DNA of 64,000 nucleotides from Kazachstania africana CBS 2517 (Eukaryota; Ascomycota; Saccharomycetes; Saccharomycetales; Saccharomycetaceae). Positions within the stretch are counted from its first letter, which is position 1. Each line of letters begins with the position of its first letter. The position numbers and the translations under genes were made by a program. Shown here piece by piece: positions 1-57,111 of the stretch. The stretch is taken from NCBI RefSeq assembly GCF_000304475.1, contig NC_018942.1, forward strand, positions 1 to 64,000, in the 5' to 3' direction. The notes below the pieces were generated by a model. It had not been told where the DNA came from, made no database searches, and saw nothing but the letters and a program-made list of their open reading frames with translations.

Positions 1-1509
1 ATTTTATTGAACTCACCACACTCAATTGTTTATAAAACTACTTTATCCCACTTCTCTTGCTCACTTTTTCACCTCATGACCTTCGCATTACTGTCGCCGT
101 CACACGCTCAACTAACTAACTACCAAACATTCATCGGATTATCATCTTTTTTTCTTTCTCGGGTCCTGCCGAAATTTGAACTTGAGGAATACAATCTTTT
201 TTCTGACCCCCGGGCACTCCAGAAAAACCCGCTCAAATCGATCTCGTCAAATTCACCTGACACGGACCTACCTACTTAACCCCACCCGAAACACACCTTC
301 TGGTCTCTTGTGAACTTGACTCTTATATATTTCAAATCAGACAACTCAGTAGATCAACATATCTTTCTACCAACTTCATAGCCCCTCTCCTTCTTGAAAT
401 AATTTCTCAAATTTCCACTATTTTCAGACGAGATATCTCACTCGAAATACAGCGTCAGAGACATGATCCTGTCGTATAATGGATCTAATCACTATCTTCT
501 ATCATTATATTAATATAGATATAATTTACTGCTCACTCCCTCTAGTCTACTCTCATTCTTCGCTAATTGATTTCCATATATTTTCCTCATCTTCACATAC
601 TTCCCTACTTTACATACTATCTTGGAATAATATTTTAATATCACCATTGAATACCACTTTTCCACTCTTCCATCACTCTCTATTCTGTAAACACCTACTC
701 TTTCTCTTTTCCAATATTAACATTTACGCCAATCCGAAACGATATTTCTTCAACTTTACTTCGTCTTTTTTAAAAATATTAAAATAAAAATCAGGAAACC
801 ACTGACTAAACTATGACAAACTTGCCCTATTCCTCTGAACTAAGGGGAAAACTATTATTTTACTATCTCTATTATCAATTTATTCTATATTCGAATAATC
901 GCCTTTCTCTCGACTGATGATCCTGAATATGACATCATACATCCACATAAACCGTCCACACTCGACAGATTACGAAACATCTATTCCCATTTTACTACCG
1001 TCTACACTCATCGAGATACTCTCTTATATCTTCTCACCGTAAAACCTCGCACACTCGCTCTTCTCACAGCTCCCCGATCAAACTCGCATTCGAACTTCCA
1101 ATTTCATTTTCTTTTCCCAACGCGACGGAGAAAACTGATTCTCATTGAATTTATTTTTGAGAAAACCTCGCTCACAGGATTCTCCTTACTTTTCGCCTAG
1201 ATTTTCACAGTGAGAGAATACCGTACAGACAACACTTGAAAGATCTCGTGCGACCATTTCTAAGGAAAGATCTTTAATATTATTCTTTCAACCTTCTCAA
1301 CTTGTTATCATAATTAACACCCACTTTCTTATCCAAAATTCACCCATTCATTCCTGAACTACTCACCCGCTCCCTTTTCAATATCACTTACCTCTACATA
1401 TTACACTTCCCTCTGCCATTCTTTTCTTCGCGTTTTTCTCATTTCATTATTTTCTCGCGCAAACAGACCTCTCGAAATCTGCGCTCGATCTCAGAAGAAA
1501 AAATCTCAA

Positions 1510-4140
1510 ATCTTCCCCGCTCTGCGAGATCGTCTCGGCCAACTTTCCCCTGCGTAACTGTCTGACACCACAACACTGAAAATGATCATTTTGACATGAC
1601 ACTTTCCATTCCACGTACATCTGAACCCATAAAATACAATTAAATCGACCTCATTCCATCACACTACATATATCTATGAACCAATACCATAGAACACTCT
1701 GCTATACACCATCTTTTCTATCTTATCATCGTCAAGACTCTTTACTCTGACCACCTCGCCCCCCCACCCATTTTATACCTCTGCTATCCCTTCTTTCACT
1801 GTCACAGTCTCTACAATTATCATTTTAATCCACCTTCTTAAATACACAAATGAATCAACTATATCAATCATTACTGAAACAGGAATAACTTTACTTGACT
1901 TATATATAATTGATAAATGAACTCAAATGTCATTCATAATCATCTCTGACACTTCCTAAACTAACCCATTCGATAATCATGACCCTCACCGATGAATATC
2001 AACTGACCACTATTTCTACTTCCGAACATCCCTGTATCAATAAATATCAATTACGGAATCATCCAAACTTCCCCTTCATTGGATAACCCTGATTACGATT
2101 AAGTGAGAATTTCAAAGGAACCACACTCCAAATATTGTATGCGTTACTTTATTCCGTGAAATATTCTATTGAACCCGATTCCTTCTCATATTCTACATGA
2201 TATACACTCTGTCGTTCTGCCTGGAATCTATCAAAAAATATTCTCTTTGTCAACATCCTATATCATTCTAAACTTTCACTTATCTCTTCATGATCAACAT
2301 CATCCGTATGATTTTTGGGCACTAATTTTATACCCGTAAATGGTTGAATTCTTTGAACAGCTTTGGACAGAGCGAGCATGAGCCCAGAATATTTCTATAA
2401 TAACACAATACATCTGCCAAAACTTCACCTTGTCATGCCTAAATTTTCTCTTTAAAAAACCATTTACAATTTAACTGGATACAATAAGAGATCACTACTA
2501 TTCTAACAGAAGAGACACCTTCGTAATAGATTTACCTCATCCACTCAAAAATAATAGATCTCAATCCTATTGACAGCCAATTCCTCGGGTACATTCTCTC
2601 AAACCATTCAATAACTATTGTCTTTAACATCTTCTCGTTATGACATCAACTCAACCTTGACACAGTGCCTGGACATACCACCCTTTAACATAACACTAAC
2701 TTCGTTTCAAATTAATACTTTACTTTCTAATTTAGAGATATGACATTAACACAACTACGCTACCGCGCTTTAAATCGAATATATCTAACTAATTGACCAC
2801 CGATCTATAATAACTTTGTCACTGAATCATATGAACAAAATTACCTAGGAAGTCCAATCATTAACAACTTCTGAAATAACACTTTCATAATTTGGAAGGA
2901 TACATCGTAAATATTCCGCATCTTATCAATAAAATCTTCGTTCAAGGCACTTTCCCACCCACAGATGAAGGCCAGCATATTCCGCGTGACACTCCACGTC
3001 ACAACATCATTGGAGAATTTCCATTTGATGACAAGGGACTAATGCCAGTCACAATGACAATCGTCACCGCTCCACACCTAGGGAAATGCTTACGAATTCA
3101 TAGATTATTTCTACTGACATAATTATCCCATATCTGAATTACTTTGTCGTCTACAATTGGGACATCCATTCTATGCCAGTTTAACCACTTACCGTACTCA
3201 TCTACCGACATAACATATTATGATCAAACTTTCCAAAGAACAATAATACAACTTGGAACATTGGAACCACAAGCTCAATGACTGCGATCTTGATATAATA
3301 AATTTACGAAAGCCTTTCTCTGTCATTCTTGTCATTCCCGTCAAATAAACCATTCTTGTCTAACTGGATAGAGTAAGAGGCTATTATTATTTGTAACCTG
3401 AGGAAACATTTTCGTCCTTGACCTTTTTTACTCATCTCAAAGAATGATCGATCTAAATTCTATTCACAGCCTTCTGAGACAGTCTGTCTAATTTTCTTTC
3501 AATAACAGTCACGATATCATCATCTAATTATGACATACACAACGTTCAAGCGTCTCATTCTTAAAACTAACACGGATCACTTTCAAATGAATCTGTGACT
3601 TAACCCTATTATTGAACACACCATCGCATTCTACTGATCATAATTTACTAACTCACCATCTATTTGAAATAGCTTTATCTTTGATTGTCAGGGAACATAG
3701 CTACTCGATGAATCCAATTATTTTTCGAATAACCATGATAACTTCTTAAATGACAGTCTCGAACGTGGAAATATGAACATTAAACATATTTTTTATCACA
3801 AGCGTCATTTATAATAATCGTTCTGAATACTCCACCAACAGGTGACATTCATTCCATCATCTCTTTATTTGTAATAATAGGAATAGACGATTCATATTGT
3901 CGTCTCCCTTCTTCCACATACGAATATTACTAATGAACACAGATTAGTATCCGACATTATCGGTGAGAAGAAATACATCCATTCAATTCTAACCTATACT
4001 TTACGAAAGGCTATCGAAACCAGTCATCAAATGCGCAATCTCAAATTCTGATCAAGCCAAATACAGCGATTAATTACCAACGAAGCTTCATTGCTACTTC
4101 TCATCGACATCTGGTCACTATTTCTGCATCGTTACTCAAT
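1510..4140. repeat. Strongly diverged tandem repeat, period about 890 bp
   Basis: Two adjacent units can be aligned by eye. The word TAACTGGATA recurs at 2471 and 3361 with one substitution-rich neighbour, CTATT-ACAGCC at 2567 and 3460, TTCAATAAC at 2607 and 3498, and TTATGACAT at 2638 and 3528. The offsets are 890, 893, 891 and 890. A third unit to the left is suggested by a matching stretch around ACCTCAT at 1648 and 2534, an offset of 886. Similarity between anchors is patchy, so the units are old. They share no frame and do not look coding. The outer limits given are approximate. Confidence 0.55.
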
Positions 4141-4737
4141 TGCCCAAAGACTTCCCTAGAACATATTCAAGAAATTGACTAAAAAACTTGATTTTGACTC
4201 CTCTAGATTTGACAATTTTGTGAACTACATCGGTTTAGATCTGTGCGTACTTATTGTACTAGTATCATCGACTTTTTACTTTGAAATATTCCTAAGATCT
4301 CTGACATTGTCTTCTCGTTTTATCAATCCAAAAGGGCGCCATTACATAGGGATAATTGAAATCAGGGAAGTCCACCAACATAACCACTTGCTAGTAACAC
4401 AACTTGCCTCTATTAAAAAACCATCAATGGGCGATTTTGAGCCTGTATTATCAACTCTTCTTCCCCTTATCAAACTGATTGTACACTTCAGATCGATTGG
4501 AATTGACGCCAAATCAGCGTAAACTAACTCTATAACCATGACTATTATCAAGTGACTATCAACGAATATGAATACCTTACGTTTTAACACACAATCATGA
4601 CAAATTACACTTCGATATCCTGGTTCATAGCTTCTTCTGGTATTCAGATCTTCAGTAAATCTACGTGAATAAACGTACTAGTCTCGACCTTAGAGCTCAT
4701 CTCTCTTCACCGTTCCTTCATCTTTGAATCTTCGAAA

Positions 4738-4753
4738 TTTTTTTTTTTTTTTT
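4738..4753 (+). repeat. T16 homopolymer run
   Basis: Sixteen T residues are flanked on the left by TTCGAAA and on the right by CTAAATTTCGA, so a short inverted match brackets the run. It lies where the strand asymmetry of the left tract fades. No promoter or gene is seen next to it. Confidence 0.8.
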
Positions 4754-5400
4754 CTAAATTTCGATTCTCGAGAAAAAGAGATTTGATTGTAATTCAATCA
4801 ACTACACGATTACTTTAACTAACAGATATAACTTACATTTCCAATGAAGTTCAGAGCTGACTGAAAAGAGTACACTTACTACTTCCAAGCACGATGTCGA
4901 ATTCATAGAATGAAGGGACGAGATAAAGAAATGACTAAAGGGATGGGTCCCGTATTGCTGACCAGCACTCCTTCCATCAGTTACTACCATTCCCTGGTAG
5001 TTTATCAAATACGTACAGATTAGAATGTCTTAACTCCAATAGCTCATGAACAGCGTTCTTGAGCTGGAGCTTCCTTGAAAATGAAATGTTTTTCAATAAT
5101 TCAGGATTGCCTTCTTTTCAAGAATGAAACAATACTATAATCTCACCATCAATGGTATATAATGCTAAGAATAACACGGAATAACATATTCAACTGTTAT
5201 GAGGTATTGACAACATTCGTAACTATGAATTTGATTGCATTCGTATCAACCACTTTTCCATTTAAATTAAACACATCCAACGAACCAAGTATCTCTTATG
5301 ATGGCGGATACACAAGTCATCTAATTTTTTATTAAAATAACTGATATTTGTTCTCAATTCAACATCCCACACTATTCTGCTTTCGAATCATTCGAATCAT

Positions 5401-5660
5401 TTATCGAAACGCAATCATAATCAAGGAATAAGAGGGTACAAGTACTGCAGCACTCCAATCTAACACTGCTGGGAAAAAGTTGTAACATCTATCTTCCCAA
5501 CGCCGGAGAATCATTCGGACTATGAGGTCCCCCATCAGAGTGGGACGATATGTTGGAAGGCAATTCATCTTTATATCTGTTGGAAGGTAGGATTTAAGAA
5601 GAAAGAGCGGTACCGGTTTACAATTTGGCACCCATCTCAAGTTAGACAAATGTAAAGAAC
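5401..5660 (-). mobile_element. Possible Ty3/gypsy pol C-terminal remnant
   Basis: A minus-strand frame of about 82 codons contains a run resembling the tail of gypsy-type Pol proteins, where a short Ser-Leu-Leu-Lys-x-Tyr motif is followed by a proline-rich stretch and a Gly-Asp-x-Ile-x-x-x-x-Ile-Leu segment. Here the words LLKSYLPTDIK and GDLIVRMIL fit that layout. There is no flanking integrase, no terminal repeat and no target duplication visible. The match is from memory and short, so an unrelated chance frame remains likely. Confidence 0.25.
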
Positions 5661-6344
5661 TAAATCCTCCAGATATTTCTCCCAGCTGGAAGTTTCTACT
5701 GTTTTATATATTACTTTGTAAGAAAAATAGAATATAATATTAACGTTTTACTGTGCCAGTGCTTGCAACAGTCAGCGTAACTCAAACTAATTATACTCAT
5801 ATTACGTCTAGAAAAGCTATTTATCCAGAATCAACCATACATCGACAAGCTACACATATTTAAGACCGTACTATGAGATATTCTATACAAGAAGGTAAAA
5901 CCGTACTACTTAACTCTATATATAATTCATTGGCACCTGTAAACCATCAAATACCTCACAATTTCTAACACCGAGGTGTCAAATCCACGCCTTTCCACCT
6001 CAGACGTCTATCGAAAATGCGCCAAACGTTAAACGTTTCTACTGGTTTGTTGCAAAAATACCAAAATATTTACAGCAAGTGATTATTTAACTAATTAATC
6101 TTGCCTGCAACTCAACATTAACTCATATTGGGAAAATTTTGGTTTACATAGATGAGACGGTTCATTTTCGTAAAGTTGTGCTGCTCACTATTGAGCTATA
6201 CAAAGTGCGGTTCGGCTCCTGATCGCAGTGCAGACTATTTTAAAGGGTCACTCATAAACATTATAAAAATACCTTGGCCTCAGACTGAGTGTAATACATC
6301 TATTTTAAATCTGCATTTGGTGAAGGTGTTAAGAGAACCTATAG

Positions 6345-6542
6345 GTAATTAAGAAAGAATTAGGAGTTGCAGTTTCAGAAATTGCCATTCTGAGAAAGCA
6401 ACTTTCTAGCAAAATTGGCGATGACTCTTCTGACTTCGAGAGCTATATGTATGTGGTGTGCAAGTTCTCTCATGAATTGCTAAAGCGTTCAAGTGACACT
6501 CTTGTGACTCTGTTGACAGATTCAAAATTGTTACTGGCATAA
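6345..6542 (+). pseudogene. Degenerate open frame, unrecognised
   Basis: A frame without an ATG stays open for 65 codons and reads like real protein, with an amphipathic helical stretch (AVSEIAILRKQLSSKIG) and a serine/leucine-rich continuation. Further coding-like pieces in shifted frames follow to about 6780. The family is not recognised. The pattern fits an old, frameshifted gene, but chance cannot be excluded. Confidence 0.25.
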
Positions 6543-7278
6543 TTGAAATATAATTCCCTTGGGCAATAATAAATTGATCCCGGGAGTCTGGAGAAAATTT
6601 TAAGAAAAAAATTTTTCAGGAGAAACAAGATTGTAGCAAAAGATAGCTTTTAGTTGAGGTGCTTCAAATGTCCTGAGGGATTTCATCCAAACCATGAGAC
6701 ACTCCTGAATACTATCCTGCTTGAAAATATTGCCCAACCACTATACATAGCGTGCCATTAATGGACGGTATTGGCTCCTTTATTCACGGAATAATCTTTG
6801 CTTATAGTAACAGAATTCGCCCAGAAAGTCTTGGCGATTTTTTCGATTAGCTAACGTTAACGCCCTACAGCCGCTTCTTGCAGGGCGGGAAGCAATTAGA
6901 AGTCAATTTTTTTATAATCTGGATGTATCTTCGTTTGTAAACAAAGCGGCCTACTTCATTTTCTGGATTAAAATATTGCTTAAATTTTACAGTAAATATA
7001 AGTTAAGAGACACTCGAGAACTCCCCCCGAAGTCAGAAATACATCCATTTTTTTTCAACTCTTTTCAAAATACAATAATGGGATAGAAACATTTTCTCCA
7101 TTTTATCGTTCAGCTCCCATGGCAGTGTAAATTAAACTTCTATCGATAGCTGAGCCACATTTAACAGGCACCTGCCTAATCTACTGGCTGGTCGACAACT
7201 TACTTGATCCTGCTGCTTAAATTGCTTAATCAAAATCCTAATAAACCTTCGTAGAGATCATTTATCCAAATTGTTATC

Positions 7279-7291
7279 TGGGTACGGGTGC
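7279..7291 (-). promoter_or_regulatory. Rap1-like site
   Basis: The minus strand reads GCACCCGTACCCA, which agrees at 11 of 13 positions with the remembered Rap1 consensus ACACCCRYACAYM. It lies about 280 bases before the permease gene that starts at 7573. It could be a promoter site or a scrap of telomere-like sequence. No second copy is seen nearby. Confidence 0.3.
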
Positions 7292-7572
7292 CGCAGTCCT
7301 GATGCGTAAACCGACCGCTGATAACAAGCTGTACCACAAGAATTTTTTTAATAACGTAGTCCTCATCTTTGATCAGGATGAATTATTATATAATTCGGCA
7401 TCTTATACTTAATAGAAGTATGATATGATGGGGTCTGTCTCTTGTACAGACCGGTTTTGTAACTGACGATCACCGGTACTAAAGTACTAAAAGAGTTGCA
7501 ATAGCTTCGACAGAAAATAACCCATCTATTCTCAGCGCAGTTTCTAGTGTCACATCTGTACCACGCGACGCA

Positions 7573-8994
7573 ATGGAAGGACATGAGCTGGCGTCGAGCC
7601 ATTCTACGAACACTATGGGAGACTTCAGTACTGAACAGAAAGTAAATGAAGTAAATTCTTTTGAAGAGATTAAAAATGTTAGTGTAGACAAAGGCATTTT
7701 ATCAGAAGATAATATTGATTTTCCTGAAGGTGGCTTTCAGGGTTGGTTAACCACCTTTGGATCGTTTTGCGGCTTGATAGCAGTTTTTGGTATAGAAAAT
7801 GTTACAGGTATTTTCGAAGAATATTTACAAACACATCAACTAGCAGAGGTCAATTCCTCCAAAATTGGTTGGATCTTCTCCATTTTCCCTTTCATTTGTT
7901 CTGTCTCAGGAATCTTCAGTGGTATCTATTTTGATAGAAACGGTTTCAAAAAGATTGTAATTATAGGGACAATTTTGCATGTAGGTGGTCTCTTTGCAAT
8001 GGCTAACTCGGCCAAATACTGGCACTTTATATTATCGTTCTCTATCATTTGTGGATTTGGTAATGGTTTAGCACTGAGTCCCTTGATCATTTGTCCTTCA
8101 CATTATTTCAAGAGAAGAAGAGGTTTGGCCATTGCCTGTGGTAATTTAGGGAGTTGTATTGGGGGTGGTGTCTTTCCATTTCTTTTAAGAAGATTATTTC
8201 GTATGACTTCGGATGAGAACGCATATTACGGCTTTCAATGGGGAATTAGAGTGTTAGCATTCATAAACTTGACATTGTTGATTATCTCTATTGTTTGTGC
8301 AAAGGAAAGGCTTTCTTACGCTGCTGAACTCAAGGGAAGCAAGTTCATTGAAAGATTCAAGAAGGTTTCAAAAATATACGCGCTACAGAGTTTTGACGCT
8401 AAAGGCTTAGTTGAACCATTATTTTTATCATGTGTGGTAGGCTTTGCCCTTTGTGACACGTGTTTGAACGTTGCAACAACTTACTTTACTACATATGCTA
8501 CTACTCGTGGCATAAGTGCGTCAGATTCTAAAAATCTGGTTTCGGTCATGAATTTTTGTAGTATTCCAGGCTCTTTGATACCAGGTATGCTATGTGATGT
8601 GTTTGGAAGGTTCAACATAATGATAGGAACAATGATTGCCCTCACACTACTCATATTTGTAGGGTGGTTACCATTTGCCAAAAGTTTGGCAAGTTTTTAC
8701 GTTATCTCAGCTTTATTTGGTTACTTACAGGGCACTATTTATTCCCTTCTCGTTGTGTGCTGTGGACAGGTCTCAAAAACAACAGATTTTGGTAAGAGAT
8801 ATGCTACAAGTAATCTAATTGCTTCCGGTACCATATTATATGCTGTGCCAATAGCTGGTGCAATTATTGGTAGTGGTAGTCATAGAGGATATGAAAACTA
8901 CATAGTTTATTGTGGGGTTCTCGCAATAGCTGGCGGTATTGCTATGTTTGTAACGAGGATCATAGCAGTTGGTTTCACATGGAAAAAGTACTGA
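7573..8994 (+). CDS. MFS permease of the monocarboxylate-permease-like (MCH) family
   Basis: The product of 473 residues is a 12-segment major facilitator protein. After a hydrophilic N-terminus of about 50 residues comes FPEGGFQGW, the form of the P-D-G-G-aromatic-G-W signature that opens the first helix in this family. The loop after helix 2 reads GIYFDRNGFKK and a central cytoplasmic loop separates two six-helix halves. The layout resembles yeast Mch4 and Mch5; Mch5 imports riboflavin, while the others have no proven monocarboxylate role. Substrate therefore stays open. Translation could start at 7573 or at the second ATG, 7615, which begins MGDFSTEQ; both leave the transporter whole. It is the first intact gene from the left end and stands alone among relics, as subtelomeric transporters often do. 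Confidence 0.85.
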   Translation: MEGHELASSHSTNTMGDFSTEQKVNEVNSFEEIKNVSVDKGILSEDNIDFPEGGFQGWLTTFGSFCGLIAVFGIENVTGIFEEYLQTHQLAEVNSSKIGWIFSIFPFICSVSGIFSGIYFDRNGFKKIVIIGTILHVGGLFAMANSAKYWHFILSFSIICGFGNGLALSPLIICPSHYFKRRRGLAIACGNLGSCIGGGVFPFLLRRLFRMTSDENAYYGFQWGIRVLAFINLTLLIISIVCAKERLSYAAELKGSKFIERFKKVSKIYALQSFDAKGLVEPLFLSCVVGFALCDTCLNVATTYFTTYATTRGISASDSKNLVSVMNFCSIPGSLIPGMLCDVFGRFNIMIGTMIALTLLIFVGWLPFAKSLASFYVISALFGYLQGTIYSLLVVCCGQVSKTTDFGKRYATSNLIASGTILYAVPIAGAIIGSGSHRGYENYIVYCGVLAIAGGIAMFVTRIIAVGFTWKKY

Positions 8995-9875
8995 CCTCAT
9001 AAAACTGCTGAACAAGCTCATAGGTGTAGTACTCCTGAACAGTTTGGCAAAAACGCTGTACCAGTTGGTTAACCATAAGGGCAGTCATATAATTATTAAT
9101 ATAAATACTTTAAATTTTACATATAAACACAATAACTGATACTAATACAGTTTTGAGGATCGCTGAAAAGCCAACACCTCTAAGAACGTCGCTTAGATAG
9201 ATTCATCAATTAAATTACTCAGTTTGTATTTGTATAGAGTAGGATGTGGCGGCTACGTGTTAGCGGATGATCATAGTAAATATATTTTTATCTTATTAAT
9301 GAGAATGAACTTTAGTTAAGTTTTCGTTGAAAATCATACAGGTACCATTCCTAGAAGTATAAACTCTTTATGCTTTTATTTCTACACCAGTGCCAATGAC
9401 CATTGATGATGGTTATTTTGAAGGTCAGCAGTTATTACACTTTTTTCAAAAAATGCATTATTATCAGCGGAAAAAACAACAACATAGAATCGCTGGATGA
9501 GAAACATAACCATTAATAATTACAAAACTTCATTCGGGCAAGAAAGGCGTTCATGCATATTAGCTCAATGTAATCCCAGATTTCACACACACACCATCAT
9601 CGCATATTCATCGAGGGCATATATCGGGGTATATATTTTGAAGAAGCCCTTTTGTTCATCTATTTATGCAAAGCTGGTGTGTCTAAATTTTTCTTTTTAT
9701 TTATACTCTGACTAAATGAACCCTATTAATTTGTTTCTTGAGAACAGAGTTGGTGCTTGTCCTTAGATTTGTATTCGATTAGCATGGTCACTATTCCATT
9801 TCCGAATGCTGAATATTTCTATTTCGGTTGTATATTACCGAATATCAATCATAAGAAAGAAACTAAAATGAGCAA
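8995..9875. other. Intergenic, nothing recognised
   Basis: This stretch lies between the permease gene and the end of the copia pol relic. Short frames occur but none is convincing, and no terminal repeat of the relic was found here. Confidence 0.6.
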
Positions 9876-17306: not shown

Positions 17307-17927
17307 CTATAACAAGAAAGATACAGCTAAAGCGACTGCACCAAGTAAACTGGAACAGGAGAAATCAGGCGCAGCTGCATTAGATGATGTGGCAGAGGAA
17401 CTAACCCACTTCTTTGAGTGACTAGTCGTACCAGTACCCTCAGAAGCCCAGTAAGATGACGCTCTAACTTCGTGGGAAGAGCCAGAGGCATCTTGCGATA
17501 AGGAGGACCCAGCGGTACTAGCCCACTTTTTTGAGTGACTAGTCGTACCAGTACCCTCAGCAGCCCAGTAAGATGACGCTCTAACTTCGTGTGAAGAGCC
17601 AGAGGCATCTTGTGATAAGGAGGACCCCGCTGTACTAGCCCACTCTTTTGAGTGACTAGTCGTACCAGTACCCTCAGCAGCCCAGTAAGATGACGCTCTA
17701 ACTTCGTGTGAAGAGGCAGAGGCAGAGGCATCTTGTGATAAGGAGGACCCAGCTGTACTAGCCCACTTTTTTGAGTGACTAGTCGTACCAGTACCCTCAG
17801 CAGCCCAGTAAGATGACGCTCTAACTTCGTGTGAAGAGGCAGAGGTATCTTGTGAGGAAGAAGCGGCCCCTCTCACATTGACAGAGAACAAAGAAAATGC
17901 ACCAAGTAAGATGGTTGCTGTCTTCAT
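17307..17927 (-). CDS. GPI-type cell-wall protein with four 39-41 residue repeats
   Basis: The 206-residue product has a signal peptide of about 20 residues (MKTATILLGAFSLFSVNVRG) and a C-terminal hydrophobic tail of about 15 residues after a small-residue region, the layout of a GPI-anchored protein. Four near-identical repeats fill the middle. Each carries SHEVRASSYWA, EGTGTTSHSK and a Ser-rich linker. The aromatic and charged core is unusual for wall proteins, whose repeats are mostly plain Ser/Thr. No family is recognised. It probably sits in the wall or outer membrane leaflet. Neighbours are a DUP-type gene and an FLR1-type pseudogene, fitting a fast-changing subtelomere. Confidence 0.75.
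   Translation of the reverse strand: MKTATILLGAFSLFSVNVRGAASSSQDTSASSHEVRASSYWAAEGTGTTSHSKKWASTAGSSLSQDASASASSHEVRASSYWAAEGTGTTSHSKEWASTAGSSLSQDASGSSHEVRASSYWAAEGTGTTSHSKKWASTAGSSLSQDASGSSHEVRASSYWASEGTGTTSHSKKWVSSSATSSNAAAPDFSCSSLLGAVALAVSFLL
17405..17860 (-). repeat. In-gene tandem repeat, four units of 117, 117 and 123 bp spacing
   Basis: The word GTAAGATGAC, on the top strand, recurs at 17451, 17568, 17685 and 17808, giving spacings of 117, 117 and 123 bases, all multiples of three. Units differ at only a few positions, so the array arose or was homogenised recently. Copy number is likely to vary between strains. Confidence 0.9.
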
Positions 17928-26388: not shown

Positions 26389-27471
26389 TCATAATAATAA
26401 AGCGACAGCACCGACAACACCAGCACCAACACCAATTGCATTCTTCATAGCACCATTTTGAGTTTCTTGAGCAATAGAGACGGTGGAAGCAGTGCTAGAA
26501 GATTGCTTGCTGGATTGAACAGCCATGGTGGTAGCAGCGGTGGAAGCCTTAGTGGTTTCAGCAGTTTCACTGGCAGCAGTGGCAGCCTTAGTGTTTTCAG
26601 CAGTTTCACTGGCAGCAGTGGCAGCCTTAGTGTTTTCAGCAGTTTCACTGGCAGCAGTGGCAGCCTTAGTGTTTTCAGCAGTTTCGCTGGTAGCAGTGGC
26701 AGCCTTAGCGCTAGTACTAGTTAAGTCACATGGAACAGTTACTACAACAGTAGAGAAGAAAGTTTCAGTGCCAACAACGTAGGTTTCAGTGCTGGTAGTT
26801 AGAGAAACTGTGCTAGTTGCAGCAGCGGCAGCCTTTTTAGATTCACAGACCTCATCACAAACAGTGACAGTTGTAGCAGAAGTGACGTGTTCAGTAGCTT
26901 CAACCACTTCAGTGGTACCAGAAACGGTAGCGTTGGCAGAGGCGTAACCAGAGGATGTCACAGATGCCAGAGTGGAGGAAGAAGCGACAGTGGAGTTTAA
27001 AGCGGCAGAGGTAGAGATTGAAGATTGAGTAGAAGCGGCAACAGTGGTGTTTAAGGATGTGGCAGCAGAGGAAAGAACGCTGGAGGCAGCTTGAGAGGAA
27101 GCAACTTGTGAAGTAGCTTGAGAGGAGGCAGCCTGAGAGGAAGCGGTTTCAGAAGTAGCTTGAGAAGTGGATTGAGAGGAAGCGGCTTCAGAAGTAGCTT
27201 GAGAGGAAGTAGCTTGAGAAGTAGCAGCTTCAGAAGTGGCAGCTTGAGAGGAAGCAGATTCAGAAGTGGCAGCTTGAGAGGAAGAAGACGCGACTAGAGA
27301 AGAAGATGGACTTATTGTGGAGGTAACGTAAGTGGTGGAAAAAACAGTGGAAGAAGTTACATCAGATGCAGAGCTAGAAGTACCGATGACGGATGACGAA
27401 GCAGTGGTGGCGGTGGTGGTAGATGCAACGACAGAGCTGCTTGAAGTTGTAGTAGAAGCTGAGGAACCCAT
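26389..27471 (-). CDS. Ser/Thr/Ala-rich GPI-type wall protein without an evident signal peptide
   Basis: The 360-residue product is dominated by Ser, Thr and Ala. A first half of short Ser-Gln-Ala-Thr repeats is followed by a more ordered part with two cysteines (TVTVCDEVCESKK) and a third further on (TVPCDLTS). Next come four 13-residue repeats (SETAENTKAATAA), then a C-terminal small-residue region and a hydrophobic tail ending GVVGAVALLL, as in GPI precursors. The start MGSSASTTTSS is not hydrophobic, an in-frame TAG lies three codons upstream, and no intron that would add a signal exon is visible. A TATA box 87 bases upstream fits this ATG. It may be a wall protein that lost its secretion signal. 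Confidence 0.6.
   Translation of the reverse strand: MGSSASTTTSSSSVVASTTTATTASSSVIGTSSSASDVTSSTVFSTTYVTSTISPSSSLVASSSSQAATSESASSQAATSEAATSQATSSQATSEAASSQSTSQATSETASSQAASSQATSQVASSQAASSVLSSAATSLNTTVAASTQSSISTSAALNSTVASSSTLASVTSSGYASANATVSGTTEVVEATEHVTSATTVTVCDEVCESKKAAAAATSTVSLTTSTETYVVGTETFFSTVVVTVPCDLTSTSAKAATATSETAENTKAATAASETAENTKAATAASETAENTKAATAASETAETTKASTAATTMAVQSSKQSSSTASTVSIAQETQNGAMKNAIGVGAGVVGAVALLL
26522..26710 (-). repeat. 39-bp in-gene tandem repeat
   Basis: Units of exactly 39 bases start at 26561, 26600, 26639 and 26678, with a more diverged unit before them at 26522. Each encodes SETAENTKAATAA or a close variant. Units are almost identical, so copy number probably varies. 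Confidence 0.85.
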
Positions 27472-54828: not shown

Positions 54829-57111
54829 ATGGACAAGTTCAAATTGCCCTCATTTACTAAACCCACTCATAACATCGCTCCTCCGGATATGAGCAATGTG
54901 GACCAACGACCACGTCATTTACATGTCACAAATTGTCCAAACAATACATATGCCCTCGCCAATGTTGCAGCAGTATCCCCAAAAGATTTTCCAAATAACA
55001 TTTATGTTATAGTAGACAACTTATTTGTATTTACTACAAAACATTCTAATGATATTCCTCCCGGATCTGTTGGGTTCAATGGAAATCAACGCACATGGGG
55101 TGGTTGGTCTTTAAATCAAGAAGTTCAATGTAGGGCTTTTGATATGCTAAAGTATTCCGGAAAGCAATCTTATTTGGGCTCAGTAGATATTGAGATTTCT
55201 TTTAGATCAAGAGGAAAAGCTGTAACTACACCTTTTGATCAAGATCAATTGGCAACCCACTTCATCAAAAATTATGAGTCGCAAATATTCTCACCAACCC
55301 AGTATCTTATCATGGAATTCAAAGGACATTTTTTTGATTTGAAGGTGAGAAACTTACAAGCAATTGACTTAGCTGATATTGAACCTACTAATAAAGTAGC
55401 CACAGGCATTGAAGCAAAAGGTATTTTAACCAAGCAAACGCAGCTCAACTTTTTCAAAGGAAGAGATGGTCTAGTTAACCTAACTTCTAGTAACTCTTTA
55501 AGACCAAGGTCAGATGCTGTTATTAGAGCGGACTTTAAGTTTGAAGATTTAGGTGTCGGTGGTTTAGATAAAGAGTTTACGAAGATTTTTAGGAGAGCTT
55601 TTGCAAGTAGAATTTTTCCACCATCAGTGATCGAAAAGCTAGGTATATCTCATGTCAAAGGTCTATTATTGTTTGGACCACCAGGTACTGGTAAAACTTT
55701 AATTGCCAGGAAAATTGGTAACATGCTGAATGCAAAGGAACCAAAAATCGTAAACGGTCCTGAAATATTAAGTAAATATGTCGGGTCATCTGAAGAAAAT
55801 ATTCGTAACCTGTTCAAGGATGCTGAAGCTGAATATAGAGCAAAAGGAGAAGACTCTTCCTTACACATCATCATCTTCGATGAATTGGATTCTGTTTTCA
55901 AACAAAGAGGGTCCAGAGGTGATGGAACTGGTGTAGGAGACAATGTTGTCAACCAATTATTAGCTAAGATGGACGGTGTTGACCAACTAAATAATATTCT
56001 GGTTATTGGTATGACTAATCGTAAGGATTTGATCGATAATGCCTTATTACGTCCTGGTAGATTTGAAGTCCAAGTTGAAATACACTTGCCAGATGAAGCT
56101 GGTAGATTACAAATTTTTGAAATTCAGACTAGAAAAATGAGAGAAAATGACATGATGGATGCTGATGTTGATCTAGCCGAGTTAGCTGCACTATCCAAAA
56201 ACTTTTCAGGTGCTGAAATCGAAGGTTTAGTTAAAAGTGCAAGTTCATTCGCTATAAATAAAACGGTCAATATTGGTAAGGGTCAAACAAAACTAAATCA
56301 AAAAGATATTGCGAAGTTGAAAGTTACTAGAAATGATTTTTTGAATGCTTTAACAGAAGTAACACCTGCCTTTGGTATAAATGAGGAGGATCTGAAAACG
56401 TGTGTCGAGGGTGGTATGATTTTATATTCTGATAGAATCAATGCTATCTTGAAAAACGGTGAAAGGTACGTTCGCCAAGTTCGTCAAAGTGAAAAATCAA
56501 GGTTGGTTTCGTTGTTATTCCATGGCCCTCCCGGTTCGGGTAAAACTGCACTTGCAGCTGCTATTGCTCTAAAGTCTGAATTCCCATTTATCAGACTTAT
56601 ATCACCAAATGAACTTACTGGTATGTCAGAAAGTGCAAAAATAGCTTACATTGACAATACTTTCAGAGATGCTTATAAATCGCCACTAAACATTTTGGTT
56701 ATTGATTCACTTGAAACACTTGTTGATTGGGTACCAATTGGCCCTAGATTTTCCAACAATATCCTCCAAGTTTTGAAAGTTGCTTTAAAATATAAACCGC
56801 CAGAAGGTCGTCGTCTCTTAATTATGACAACAACTTCTGCGTACTCGGTCTTAAAACAAATGGATATATTGAGTTGTTTTGATAATGAGATAGCAGTTCC
56901 TAACATGACCAATTTGGATGAATTTAATAATGTTATGATGGATACCGGCTTCCTAGATGATGCCGATAGAGTTAGAGTTATAAATAAGTTAGCCGAAACA
57001 GCCCCACGCATGAACATTGGCATTAAGAAAGCGCTCACGAATATTGAAACAGCAAGACATGATGATGATCCAATAAATGAAATCGTTGAATTAATGACAC
57101 AGGCCGTGTGA
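54829..57111 (+). CDS. SEC18: AAA+ ATPase NSF/Sec18
   Basis: The 760-residue product (758 in S. cerevisiae) disassembles SNARE complexes after membrane fusion. An N domain of about 220 residues is followed by the active D1 ring with GPPGTGKT near residue 282, IIFDELDSVF near 350 and TNRKDLIDNALLRPGR as the second region of homology. The D2 ring has GPPGSGKT near residue 566, with LVIDSLETLV at the Walker B place, where glutamate is replaced, as usual in the hexamer-holding D2 domain. It lies 267 bases after SPT7 on the same strand. Confidence 0.97.
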   Translation: MDKFKLPSFTKPTHNIAPPDMSNVDQRPRHLHVTNCPNNTYALANVAAVSPKDFPNNIYVIVDNLFVFTTKHSNDIPPGSVGFNGNQRTWGGWSLNQEVQCRAFDMLKYSGKQSYLGSVDIEISFRSRGKAVTTPFDQDQLATHFIKNYESQIFSPTQYLIMEFKGHFFDLKVRNLQAIDLADIEPTNKVATGIEAKGILTKQTQLNFFKGRDGLVNLTSSNSLRPRSDAVIRADFKFEDLGVGGLDKEFTKIFRRAFASRIFPPSVIEKLGISHVKGLLLFGPPGTGKTLIARKIGNMLNAKEPKIVNGPEILSKYVGSSEENIRNLFKDAEAEYRAKGEDSSLHIIIFDELDSVFKQRGSRGDGTGVGDNVVNQLLAKMDGVDQLNNILVIGMTNRKDLIDNALLRPGRFEVQVEIHLPDEAGRLQIFEIQTRKMRENDMMDADVDLAELAALSKNFSGAEIEGLVKSASSFAINKTVNIGKGQTKLNQKDIAKLKVTRNDFLNALTEVTPAFGINEEDLKTCVEGGMILYSDRINAILKNGERYVRQVRQSEKSRLVSLLFHGPPGSGKTALAAAIALKSEFPFIRLISPNELTGMSESAKIAYIDNTFRDAYKSPLNILVIDSLETLVDWVPIGPRFSNNILQVLKVALKYKPPEGRRLLIMTTTSAYSVLKQMDILSCFDNEIAVPNMTNLDEFNNVMMDTGFLDDADRVRVINKLAETAPRMNIGIKKALTNIETARHDDDPINEIVELMTQAV

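Follow-up and report, generated by a model that had tools for sequence, protein, structure and literature searches.

Loss of G and gain of C over the last 6 kb of a Kazachstania africana chromosome end may in part be the mutation imprint of an exposed end

Why does one DNA strand become poor in G and rich in C toward the start of a contig, and why does this asymmetry fade inward? The question is raised by the window analysed here, a stretch of 64,000 nucleotides of Kazachstania africana CBS 2517 which begins with the first nucleotide of contig NC_018942.1 (the genome consists of 12 contigs, 11.13 Mb). Positions 1-4900 contain 1532 A, 1224 C, 540 G and 1604 T, and equality of C and G is rejected (naive binomial, p=5e-61); the C:G counts of six sampled 60-base lines, on which the original prediction was based, were reproduced in 6/6 cases. 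Up to 2 kb the GC skew is about -0.5, and by ~6 kb it has risen to zero: In 500-bp steps from base 1 it is -0.45, -0.56, -0.48, -0.56, -0.35 and -0.40, followed from 3 kb by -0.25, -0.30, -0.23, -0.19, -0.19, -0.13 and then +0.07. The predicted gradient over 1-4900 is thus real, and it extends slightly further than proposed. Over 1-6000, G+C is steady (0.32-0.40) and the AT skew is near zero (-0.12 to +0.08). With the remainder of this one 64-kb window serving as interior control (10-64 kb), the mean skew over 107 steps of 500 bp is 0.036 (sd 0.127, minimum -0.33, maximum 0.47), and 5-kb windows range from -0.069 to +0.124 as compared to -0.378 for 1-5000.

Judged by own-genome matches, the skewed DNA is a telomere-oriented subtelomeric repeat that is common to many ends (Table 1). 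At least 66 matches to 1-5000 were found, every listed one within ~33 kb of a contig end; 64 of the 66 listed matches have the telomere orientation, and the two exceptions are 79-bp fragments. Homology to the repeat, counted where a match longer than 200 bp occurs, is present at 16/24 contig ends, and skew of the same sign and strength class at 15/24, i. e. at 15 of the 16 homologous ends and at none of the eight others. All skewed end DNA that was compared belongs to this one family. C9R is the only end at which telomere repeats adjoin the family, with the tract lying ~0.57 kb further out than the homologue of window base 3; by the homology of its outer part to C9R, which is joined to its own contig through a gap, window base 1 would lie about 0.6 kb from a telomere tract. 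Between this tract and the homologue of window base 1, the skew on C9R is -0.67, and it then fades steadily (Spearman 0.95 between skew and distance over 15 points with C9R as outer anchor). Thus, on the top strand G falls and C rises steadily toward the telomere over the last ~6 kb. The suspected link to a nearby chromosome end is supported by these observations; a telomere-distant base 1, the same skew at interior loci or a lack of skew at all other ends was not found in strict form, the qualification being the internal copies of the repeat, which are skewed in 4/4 of those fetched.

Table 1. Coordinates of features in the first 9 kb of the window
Feature	Position	Strand	Remarks
Subtelomeric repeat bearing the skew	1..6050	- (G-rich, C-poor strand, 5' to 3' toward telomere)	from own-genome matches
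Outermost part	3..540	+	92% identical to C9R 692-1220, ~0.57 kb inside the telomere repeat tract
Outer blocks b0, b1	840..2700	+	9 and 12 copies aligned; skew ~-0.47; asymmetric substitution process
Middle blocks b2, b3	2760..4690	+	12 and 18 copies; skew ~-0.3; asymmetry marginal with recombination
Inner block b4	4700..6000	+	10 copies; skew ~-0.15; compatible with symmetry
Old internal duplication, outer copy	2357..2968	+	60.6% identical to 3248-3845
Old internal duplication, inner copy	3248..3845	+	pairs with 2357-2968
Better conserved stretch	4696..4996	+	89-93% at most matched ends; T run near 4738-4754
First intact gene inward of the repeat, for a 473-aa transporter of the major facilitator family	7573..8994	+	

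The region had been described as non-coding over almost 5 kb, and no sign of coding was found: The longest ATG ORF in 1-6000 has 102 aa (50 mononucleotide shuffles of 6 kb: mean 84, maximum 140), and 3-base periodicity is at most 1.5 times that of shuffles in 1-5400 and 1.7 times in 5401-6000, as compared to 6.6 times inside the gene at 8401-9000. A coding relic as the source of the skew was rejected on both counts.

Do the copies of the repeat still record an asymmetric substitution process? They were compared in an outer (b0 and b1, 840-2700), a middle (b2 and b3, 2760-4690) and an inner part (b4, 4700-6000). Stationary models favoured asymmetry; as they tie the root to the equilibrium composition, part of their gain is the composition itself, and they were set aside for free-root fits. 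In the latter, asymmetry gained a 2dlnL (6 df) of 53.3, 18.0 and 7.9 in the outer, middle and inner part, with fitted equilibrium skews of -0.37, -0.16 and -0.04, and the observed gains were attained in 0/60, 1/60 and 8/60 symmetric simulations, respectively. Since recombination between copies inflates this test, we built a null with recombination inside windows, which was run at 300-bp windows and is compared only with values from that setting, not with the lower ones obtained otherwise (26.4 without the diverged C2 copy); it attained the observed 2dlnL in 0/64 cases in the outer part (maximum 32.8) and in 5/64 in the middle part. Strand symmetry is thus rejected in 840-2700 with a free root and also with recombination, the excess being in T>C, G>C and G>T; asymmetry in 2760-4690 is marginal, and 4700-6000 is compatible with symmetry. 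Substitution directions between copies, the counting of which had been suggested, are thus biased in the outer part, borderline in the middle one and compatible with no bias in the inner one.

In the outer part, a single parameter that boosts G>C and T>C by x2.29 accounts for 49.0 of the 53.3, and the T>C/A>G ratio is 2.1, as compared to a largest simulated value of 1.53. All top-strand substitutions that yield C (G>C, T>C and A>C) are boosted by x1.87 in the outer part (2dlnL of 41.9 at 300 bp and 29.2 at 150 bp) and by x1.00-1.02 in the middle part, in which no excess of T>C was found. For G>C alone, the 2dlnL of 20.1 drops to 4.0 when the windows shrink to 150 bp. No excess of G>A was found in the outer and middle parts: Its boost as a single asymmetry is x0.77-1.00 with a 2dlnL gain of at most 1.8, and the G>A/C>T ratios of the free model are 0.75-1.12 and 1.10-1.37, respectively. 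The original prediction had suggested that cytosine deamination on the exposed bottom 3' strand removes G from the top strand, which should leave more G>A than C>T there; since T>C, G>C and G>T but not G>A are in excess, plain deamination is not the cause. Its reservation that the enrichment of C needs a further cause was justified, as the fitted excess lies in T>C and G>C, accompanied by G>T.

As the most likely explanation we propose, tentatively, that damage on the exposed 3'-end strand is repaired with errors and that this effect overlies a repeat passed between chromosome ends by recombination; this judgement applies to the two components jointly. The bottom strand, whose 5' to 3' direction here points at the telomere and which is the one of the 3' overhang, would gain G and lose C, most strongly beside the telomere and no longer detectably beyond 5-6 kb. 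It may often or repeatedly become single-stranded, through 5' resection or when ends undergo break-induced copying; where C or A is damaged, abasic or blocking lesions could then arise that lack a partner strand for repair, and translesion synthesis by Rev1 and Pol zeta, inserting C, would place G on the exposed strand. Lesions turned to G on this strand would make the top strand lose G and gain C at constant G+C and without AT skew. When resected subtelomeric single-stranded DNA of S. cerevisiae contains uracil, 46.9% C>G and 41.7% C>T arise on the overhang strand, according to the available part of PMC3521656; the dependence on Pol zeta and the insertion of C by Rev1 are discussed in the accessible text of PMC6765108. 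The oriented skew at the ends, its steady fade, the asymmetry of the outer part, the skew of diverged copies (those just 62-70% identical still show -0.25 to -0.42) and the lower number of G in the outer units of old internal duplications (938 vs 1126 in the inner ones) all speak for this explanation. Against it stand the skewed internal copies, the marginal result with recombination and the missing T>C excess in the middle part, the excess of G>T, which is unexpected from insertion of C, and the laboratory spectrum with C>T similar to C>G (PMC3521656, available part), while G>A is not in excess here. The drop of G>C at 150 bp, the singletons, the triplets, the tandem duplicates and a skew beyond the fitted equilibrium also argue against it.

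The main contender, possible though rather unlikely in our judgement, is that an ancestral C-rich, G-poor repeat was spread by recombination and passed on its skew, which symmetric mutation slowly erodes, the gradient being the repeat's own make-up. An ancestral C-rich repeat had already been considered in the original prediction, which is partly right here: All compared skewed ends carry the family, and internal copies 15-30 kb inside contigs have kept the skew in 4/4 of those fetched, so that part of it travels with the repeat and present distance is not the whole story. Invariant alignment columns are more skewed than variable ones (b0 -0.48/-0.42, b1 -0.61/-0.43, b2 -0.55/-0.16, b3 -0.48/-0.24), and the actual skew lies beyond the fitted equilibrium in all three parts, as expected of a decaying relic. 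Recent triplets gained G more often than they lost it (85 vs 50), and their equilibrium skew of -0.24 is reached or undercut in 6/80 symmetric and 34/80 asymmetric simulations; singleton changes (G>C 2/1285 vs C>G 21/4164) run opposite to the asymmetric model and are not significant, and no consistent outer-inner difference was found between recent tandem duplicates. We dropped the reading of the singleton and triplet counts as a bias that has stopped because in simulations they fit both models; taken by themselves, recent changes do not distinguish a bias that is still at work from a relic. However, pure inheritance conflicts with the rejection of symmetry in the outer block even with recombination, with its T>C/A>G ratio and with the compatibility of the inner block of the same element with symmetry, and a smooth rise of C toward the telomere in the source repeat would itself need a cause. 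The skew may be the mutation imprint of an exposed end and in part the heritage of an old repeat, as copies moved inward have retained it.

The other explanations account for less. Telomere-directed, TERRA-like transcription from the subtelomere, with R-loops displacing a G-rich strand that gathers damage, is improbable: Yeast TERRA starts in subtelomeres, runs endward, is G-rich and engages the C-rich template in R-loops (PMC10048448, in the part available), so that the displaced strand would be the one that gains G here, but if transcription started within the repeat, an abrupt step would be expected and not a fade extending over 6 kb. Sequence alone cannot separate R-loops from resection. 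Chromosome ends are expected to be copied by outward-moving forks, and ordinary replication asymmetry in the terminal replicon was therefore weighed as well; skews of this kind exist in yeasts, as stated in the accessible part of PMC3459929. However, in yeasts such as S. cerevisiae and K. lactis the leading strand is enriched in A and C, whereas with outward forks it would here be the G-rich bottom strand, with the opposite GC sign; moreover, AT skew is absent, the strength is far above that of the interior, and no exact S. cerevisiae-type origin consensus was found in 1-7500, which makes this account very unlikely. Hardly more can be said for selection, which would maintain an endward G-rich strand because it binds end proteins or seeds new telomeres. 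The remaining G sit in a non-random context, invariant columns are more skewed, and TTACCCT and CTAACCCT motifs adjoin the telomere on C9R; on the other hand, eight telomere-like hexamers occur in the outer segments at 0.4 to 1.5 of expectation, none of seven binding-site patterns occurs in 1-7500, and copies diverging by up to ~38% have no evident preserved motifs. The outer segments, eight in number, are homologous copies, and hexamer enrichments in them were therefore not counted in favour of motifs. A degenerated telomere repeat has next to no chance: The C9R tract is C-rich, G-free and in the same orientation, but it consists of C and A with almost no T, whereas T is at least as frequent as A both beside the tract (145 A and 189 T) and in 1-4900, and alignments between the units extend across hundreds of bases. 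A telomere-derived origin was rejected.

It is tempting, if doubtful, to go one step further from end exposure: The composition of the last 6 kb might be a spatial record of the frequency and the reach with which the 3'-end strand becomes single-stranded, by way of a translesion signature that arises in nature and is strong enough to set the composition (on the exposed strand C>G, A>G and C>A, with C>T not in excess); repeats moved inward by recombination between ends would be its fossils. If mutation at exposed ends does shape kilobases in a natural yeast, resection or R-loop exposure would be legible in the ends, the substitution spectrum could reveal the repair route that fills them, and sequence alone would allow species to be compared in their end protection. 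If the skew is a relic, the history of a repeat can mimic a position-dependent mutation gradient.

How does this locus relate to known systems? The Y' element of S. cerevisiae carries a helicase-coding ORF, and the core of the X element has an origin consensus and an Abf1 site; in contrast, no ORF here exceeds 102 aa in 1-6000, and exact matches to the origin consensus or to the Abf1-site pattern are absent from 1-7500. By description, the likeness to X and Y' elements lies in oriented repeats beside telomeres that are common to several ends and sometimes in tandem (PMC10048448 and PMC12408736, available parts); the available text of PMC12408736 on subtelomeric elements does not mention skew. 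The system of resected single-stranded DNA in S. cerevisiae concerns the same strand, with C>G on the overhang strand via abasic sites and translesion synthesis, but it is experimental, with uncapped telomeres, an added deaminase and C>T similar to C>G (PMC3521656 and PMC6765108, as far as accessible), whereas here no excess equivalent to C>T was fitted. In human subtelomeres, GC skew is tied to telomeric RNA-DNA hybrids, and strand asymmetry by telomeres is discussed with R-loops (PMC5286223, accessible part), a likeness of topic. Among titles and opening lines of abstracts in the open literature, no report of such a gradient in Kazachstania was found. The ends of Encephalitozoon cuniculi come with an enrichment of G from core to telomere that, according to the available part of PMC4704409, is not explained by gene content; there, the skew extends over EXT and SUB regions with higher G+C and AT skews, whereas here G+C is constant, the AT skew is near zero and the fade takes place over 6 kb in one non-coding repeat.

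The asymmetry of the window's left end is far beyond the range of the same window's interior: GC skew on the top strand is about -0.5 across the first 2 kb and fades from there at a nearly even pace, vanishing near 6 kb. The original prediction had described a fading G depletion over bases 1-4900, and its C:G counts were reproduced exactly in all six sampled lines. Toward the telomere, C increases and G decreases together, G+C staying at 0.32-0.40 and AT skew between -0.12 and +0.08 throughout bases 1-6000.

The window (bases 1-64000 of contig 3 in a genome of 11,130,140 bases and 12 contigs) has the gene content of a budding yeast, and its outermost part belongs to a repeat. By coordinates, all of the at least 66 matches to bases 1-5000 in the own genome are located in the terminal 33 kb or so of a contig; 64 of the 66 listed are telomere-oriented, and the other two are 79-bp fragments. 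When 10 kb at each of the 24 contig ends were surveyed, 16 ends, including the window's own, had repeat homology (at least one match over 200 bp). Mean skew is about -0.2 or lower over the first kilobase at 15 of them, with the right end of contig 3 (C3R) being borderline (-0.21 and -0.18); the sixteenth, the left end of contig 6, has just two short pieces in the search for matches over 200 bp. Negative skew of the window's sign was found at none of the eight ends lacking repeat homology. The right ends of contigs 11 and 12 are skewed oppositely, by about +0.3; this extends some 3.5 and 8.5 kb inward, through imperfect repeats that may represent a cell-wall adhesin gene reading outward to the end.

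Coordinates of features in the window and at other contig ends
Feature	Location	Strand	Remarks
Part of the repeat	window 1-6050		
Outer part (blocks b0, b1)	window 840-2700		
Middle part (blocks b2, b3)	window 2760-4690		
Inner part (block b4)	window 4700-6000		
Old, degenerate units	window 1-4700		about 0.9-1.1 kb apart; the element is composed of them here and at homologous ends
Inverted 79-bp pieces	contig 10, 219-297; contig 8, 732773-732851		both match window 2714-2794; the only inverted ones among the matches listed
Two open frames	window 26389-27471; 17307-17927	minus	coincide with tandem repeats (39-42 bp and 117 bp)
SEC18 homologue	window 54829-57111		
AT-skewed stretch	contig 8 left end, about 6900-8000		two windows of 500 bp have AT skews of -0.50 and -0.46; internal repeats present

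Most contig ends break off within the repeat, so position relative to the end need not equal true telomere distance. Among the 24 ends, only the right end of contig 9 (C9R) has telomere repeats in its first 120 bases. Its outermost approximately 121 bases are CACCACACC and CCCACA repeats (74 C, zero G), followed by TTACCCT three times and by CTAACCCT motifs. The homologue of window bases 3-540 (92% identity) starts further inward, at base 692, which puts the equivalent of window base 1 some 0.57 kb from the tract. Skew in the intervening 570 bases is -0.67 (A145 T189); the C9R piece is connected to its contig across a 317-base gap. With C9R as the outer anchor, the joint profile gives a Spearman coefficient of 0.95 (15 points), and a straight-line fit crosses zero at 7.4 kb.

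Is the skew carried by the repeat or by its place? Four internal copies were fetched, located 15-30 kb inside contigs, and the block skews of all four resemble those of terminal copies (for example -0.43, -0.52, -0.36 and -0.26 in b0-b3 of the copy on contig 7), which speaks for a property of the repeat; the copies on contigs 2 and 7 adjoin assembly gaps, and the one on contig 6 shares 91% identity with C3R and hence may have moved inward recently. Three other observations speak for an effect of place: copies of merely 62-70% identity are still skewed by -0.25 to -0.42, the skew of the element's inner block is much weaker, and the outer units of old internal duplications contain 938 G, fewer than the 1126 of their inner homologues. 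In these duplications C-over-G exceeds G-over-C at eight of nine ends with one tie, a weak count given the common ancestry of the ends, the use of no more than three matching pieces from each end, possible overlaps, and many pieces aligning at just 54-69%. Recent tandem duplicates revealed no consistent outer-inner difference.

Substitution models address the process itself. For b0-b4 (9, 12, 12, 18 and 10 copies) we compared symmetric and general rate matrices with free root composition; inherited skew alone is thus not scored as bias. Twice the log-likelihood gain (2dlnL, 6 df) was 26.9, 28.3, 22.4, 27.8 and 7.1 for whole blocks with midpoint roots, and 26.2, 52.9, 15.3, 34.3 and 10.5 with best root against best root. 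With one tree per 300-bp window, it was 53.3, 18.0 and 7.9 for the outer, middle and inner parts, with equilibrium skews of -0.37, -0.16 and -0.04. Symmetric simulations attained these values in 0, 1 and 8 of 60 runs, respectively; a null with artificial recombination inside windows, run on the outer and middle parts, did so in 0 of 64 (maximum 32.8) and 5 of 64. Varying the window size (100-600 bp) and trying two further settings for rate variation gave a 2dlnL of 36-53 in the outer and 16-31 in the middle part, and the outer value was 26.4 upon exclusion of the diverged contig 2 copy. These checks make the strand asymmetry of substitution robust in the outer part and marginal in the middle part.

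A single parameter boosting G>C and T>C jointly (2.29-fold) recovers 49.0 of the 53.3 available in the outer part. Single-parameter gains were 41.9 for any base to C, 37.6 for T>C, 20.1 for G>C and 5.0 for G>T, whereas G>A gained 1.8 with the wrong sign. With 150-bp windows, the corresponding gains (of 38.9) were 29.4 for G>C plus T>C, 29.2 for any base to C, 29.8 for T>C, 4.0 for G>C, 7.2 for G>T and 0.2 for G>A; T>C is therefore the steadiest outer component. In the middle part the combination of G>C and G>T accounts for the signal (13.2 and 15.8), to which T>C contributes nothing. G>A as a single asymmetry brings no gain; the free-model G>A/C>T ratio is 0.75-1.12 in the outer and 1.10-1.37 in the middle part, and 1.4-1.5 in whole-block fits of b2 and b3, ratios compatible with a small share of G>A excess in the middle part. 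Seen from the strand bearing the 3' end, these excesses read A>G, C>G and C>A.

Among recent changes, the singletons of b0-b3, for which four diverged copies were barred from serving as the changed copy, gave G>C 2/1285 versus C>G 21/4164 and G>T 16/1285 versus C>A 16/4164; triplets gave G>C 11/2272 versus C>G 11/5026, with 85 G gained and 50 lost. Both sets of counts resemble decay of the skew more than its maintenance, yet simulations of symmetric and asymmetric models alike cover them. The G left on the top strand in bases 1-2500 is preferentially followed by A (observed/expected 1.74, versus 0.53 for T and 0.69 for C). This preference is weaker inward (1.08, 0.81 and 1.04 for A, T and C in 4701-7000) and absent from interior DNA of the window (1.04, 0.86 and 1.10); C3R, a diverged yet skewed copy, lacks it as well (1.12, 0.84 and 1.07). 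Read on the bottom strand, C persists where T precedes it and is lost where A does, the reverse of TC targeting.

We favour a mutation process linked to exposure of the strand with the 3' end, superimposed on a repeat that carries older skew along, because the gradient is oriented and confined to end-derived DNA among the sequences compared, and because the substitution process is asymmetric in the outermost testable part. The process might be translesion bypass with C insertion. Such bypass is consistent with the strongest components of the outer part and with the absence of AT skew; it would not explain the G>T excess, the absent G>A excess, or the absent T>C excess in the middle part. R-loops would expose the same strand (PMC10048448). 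In the yeasts examined (PMC3459929), the GC sign of ordinary replication bias is opposite.

Experiments on resected yeast subtelomeres found C>G changes on the 3'-end strand (PMC3521656; PMC6765108), and G enrichment toward the telomere has been described for Encephalitozoon (PMC4704409). Thus, the phenomenon is of a known kind, and its strength, gradient, constant G+C and spectrum set the K. africana case apart as a variant.
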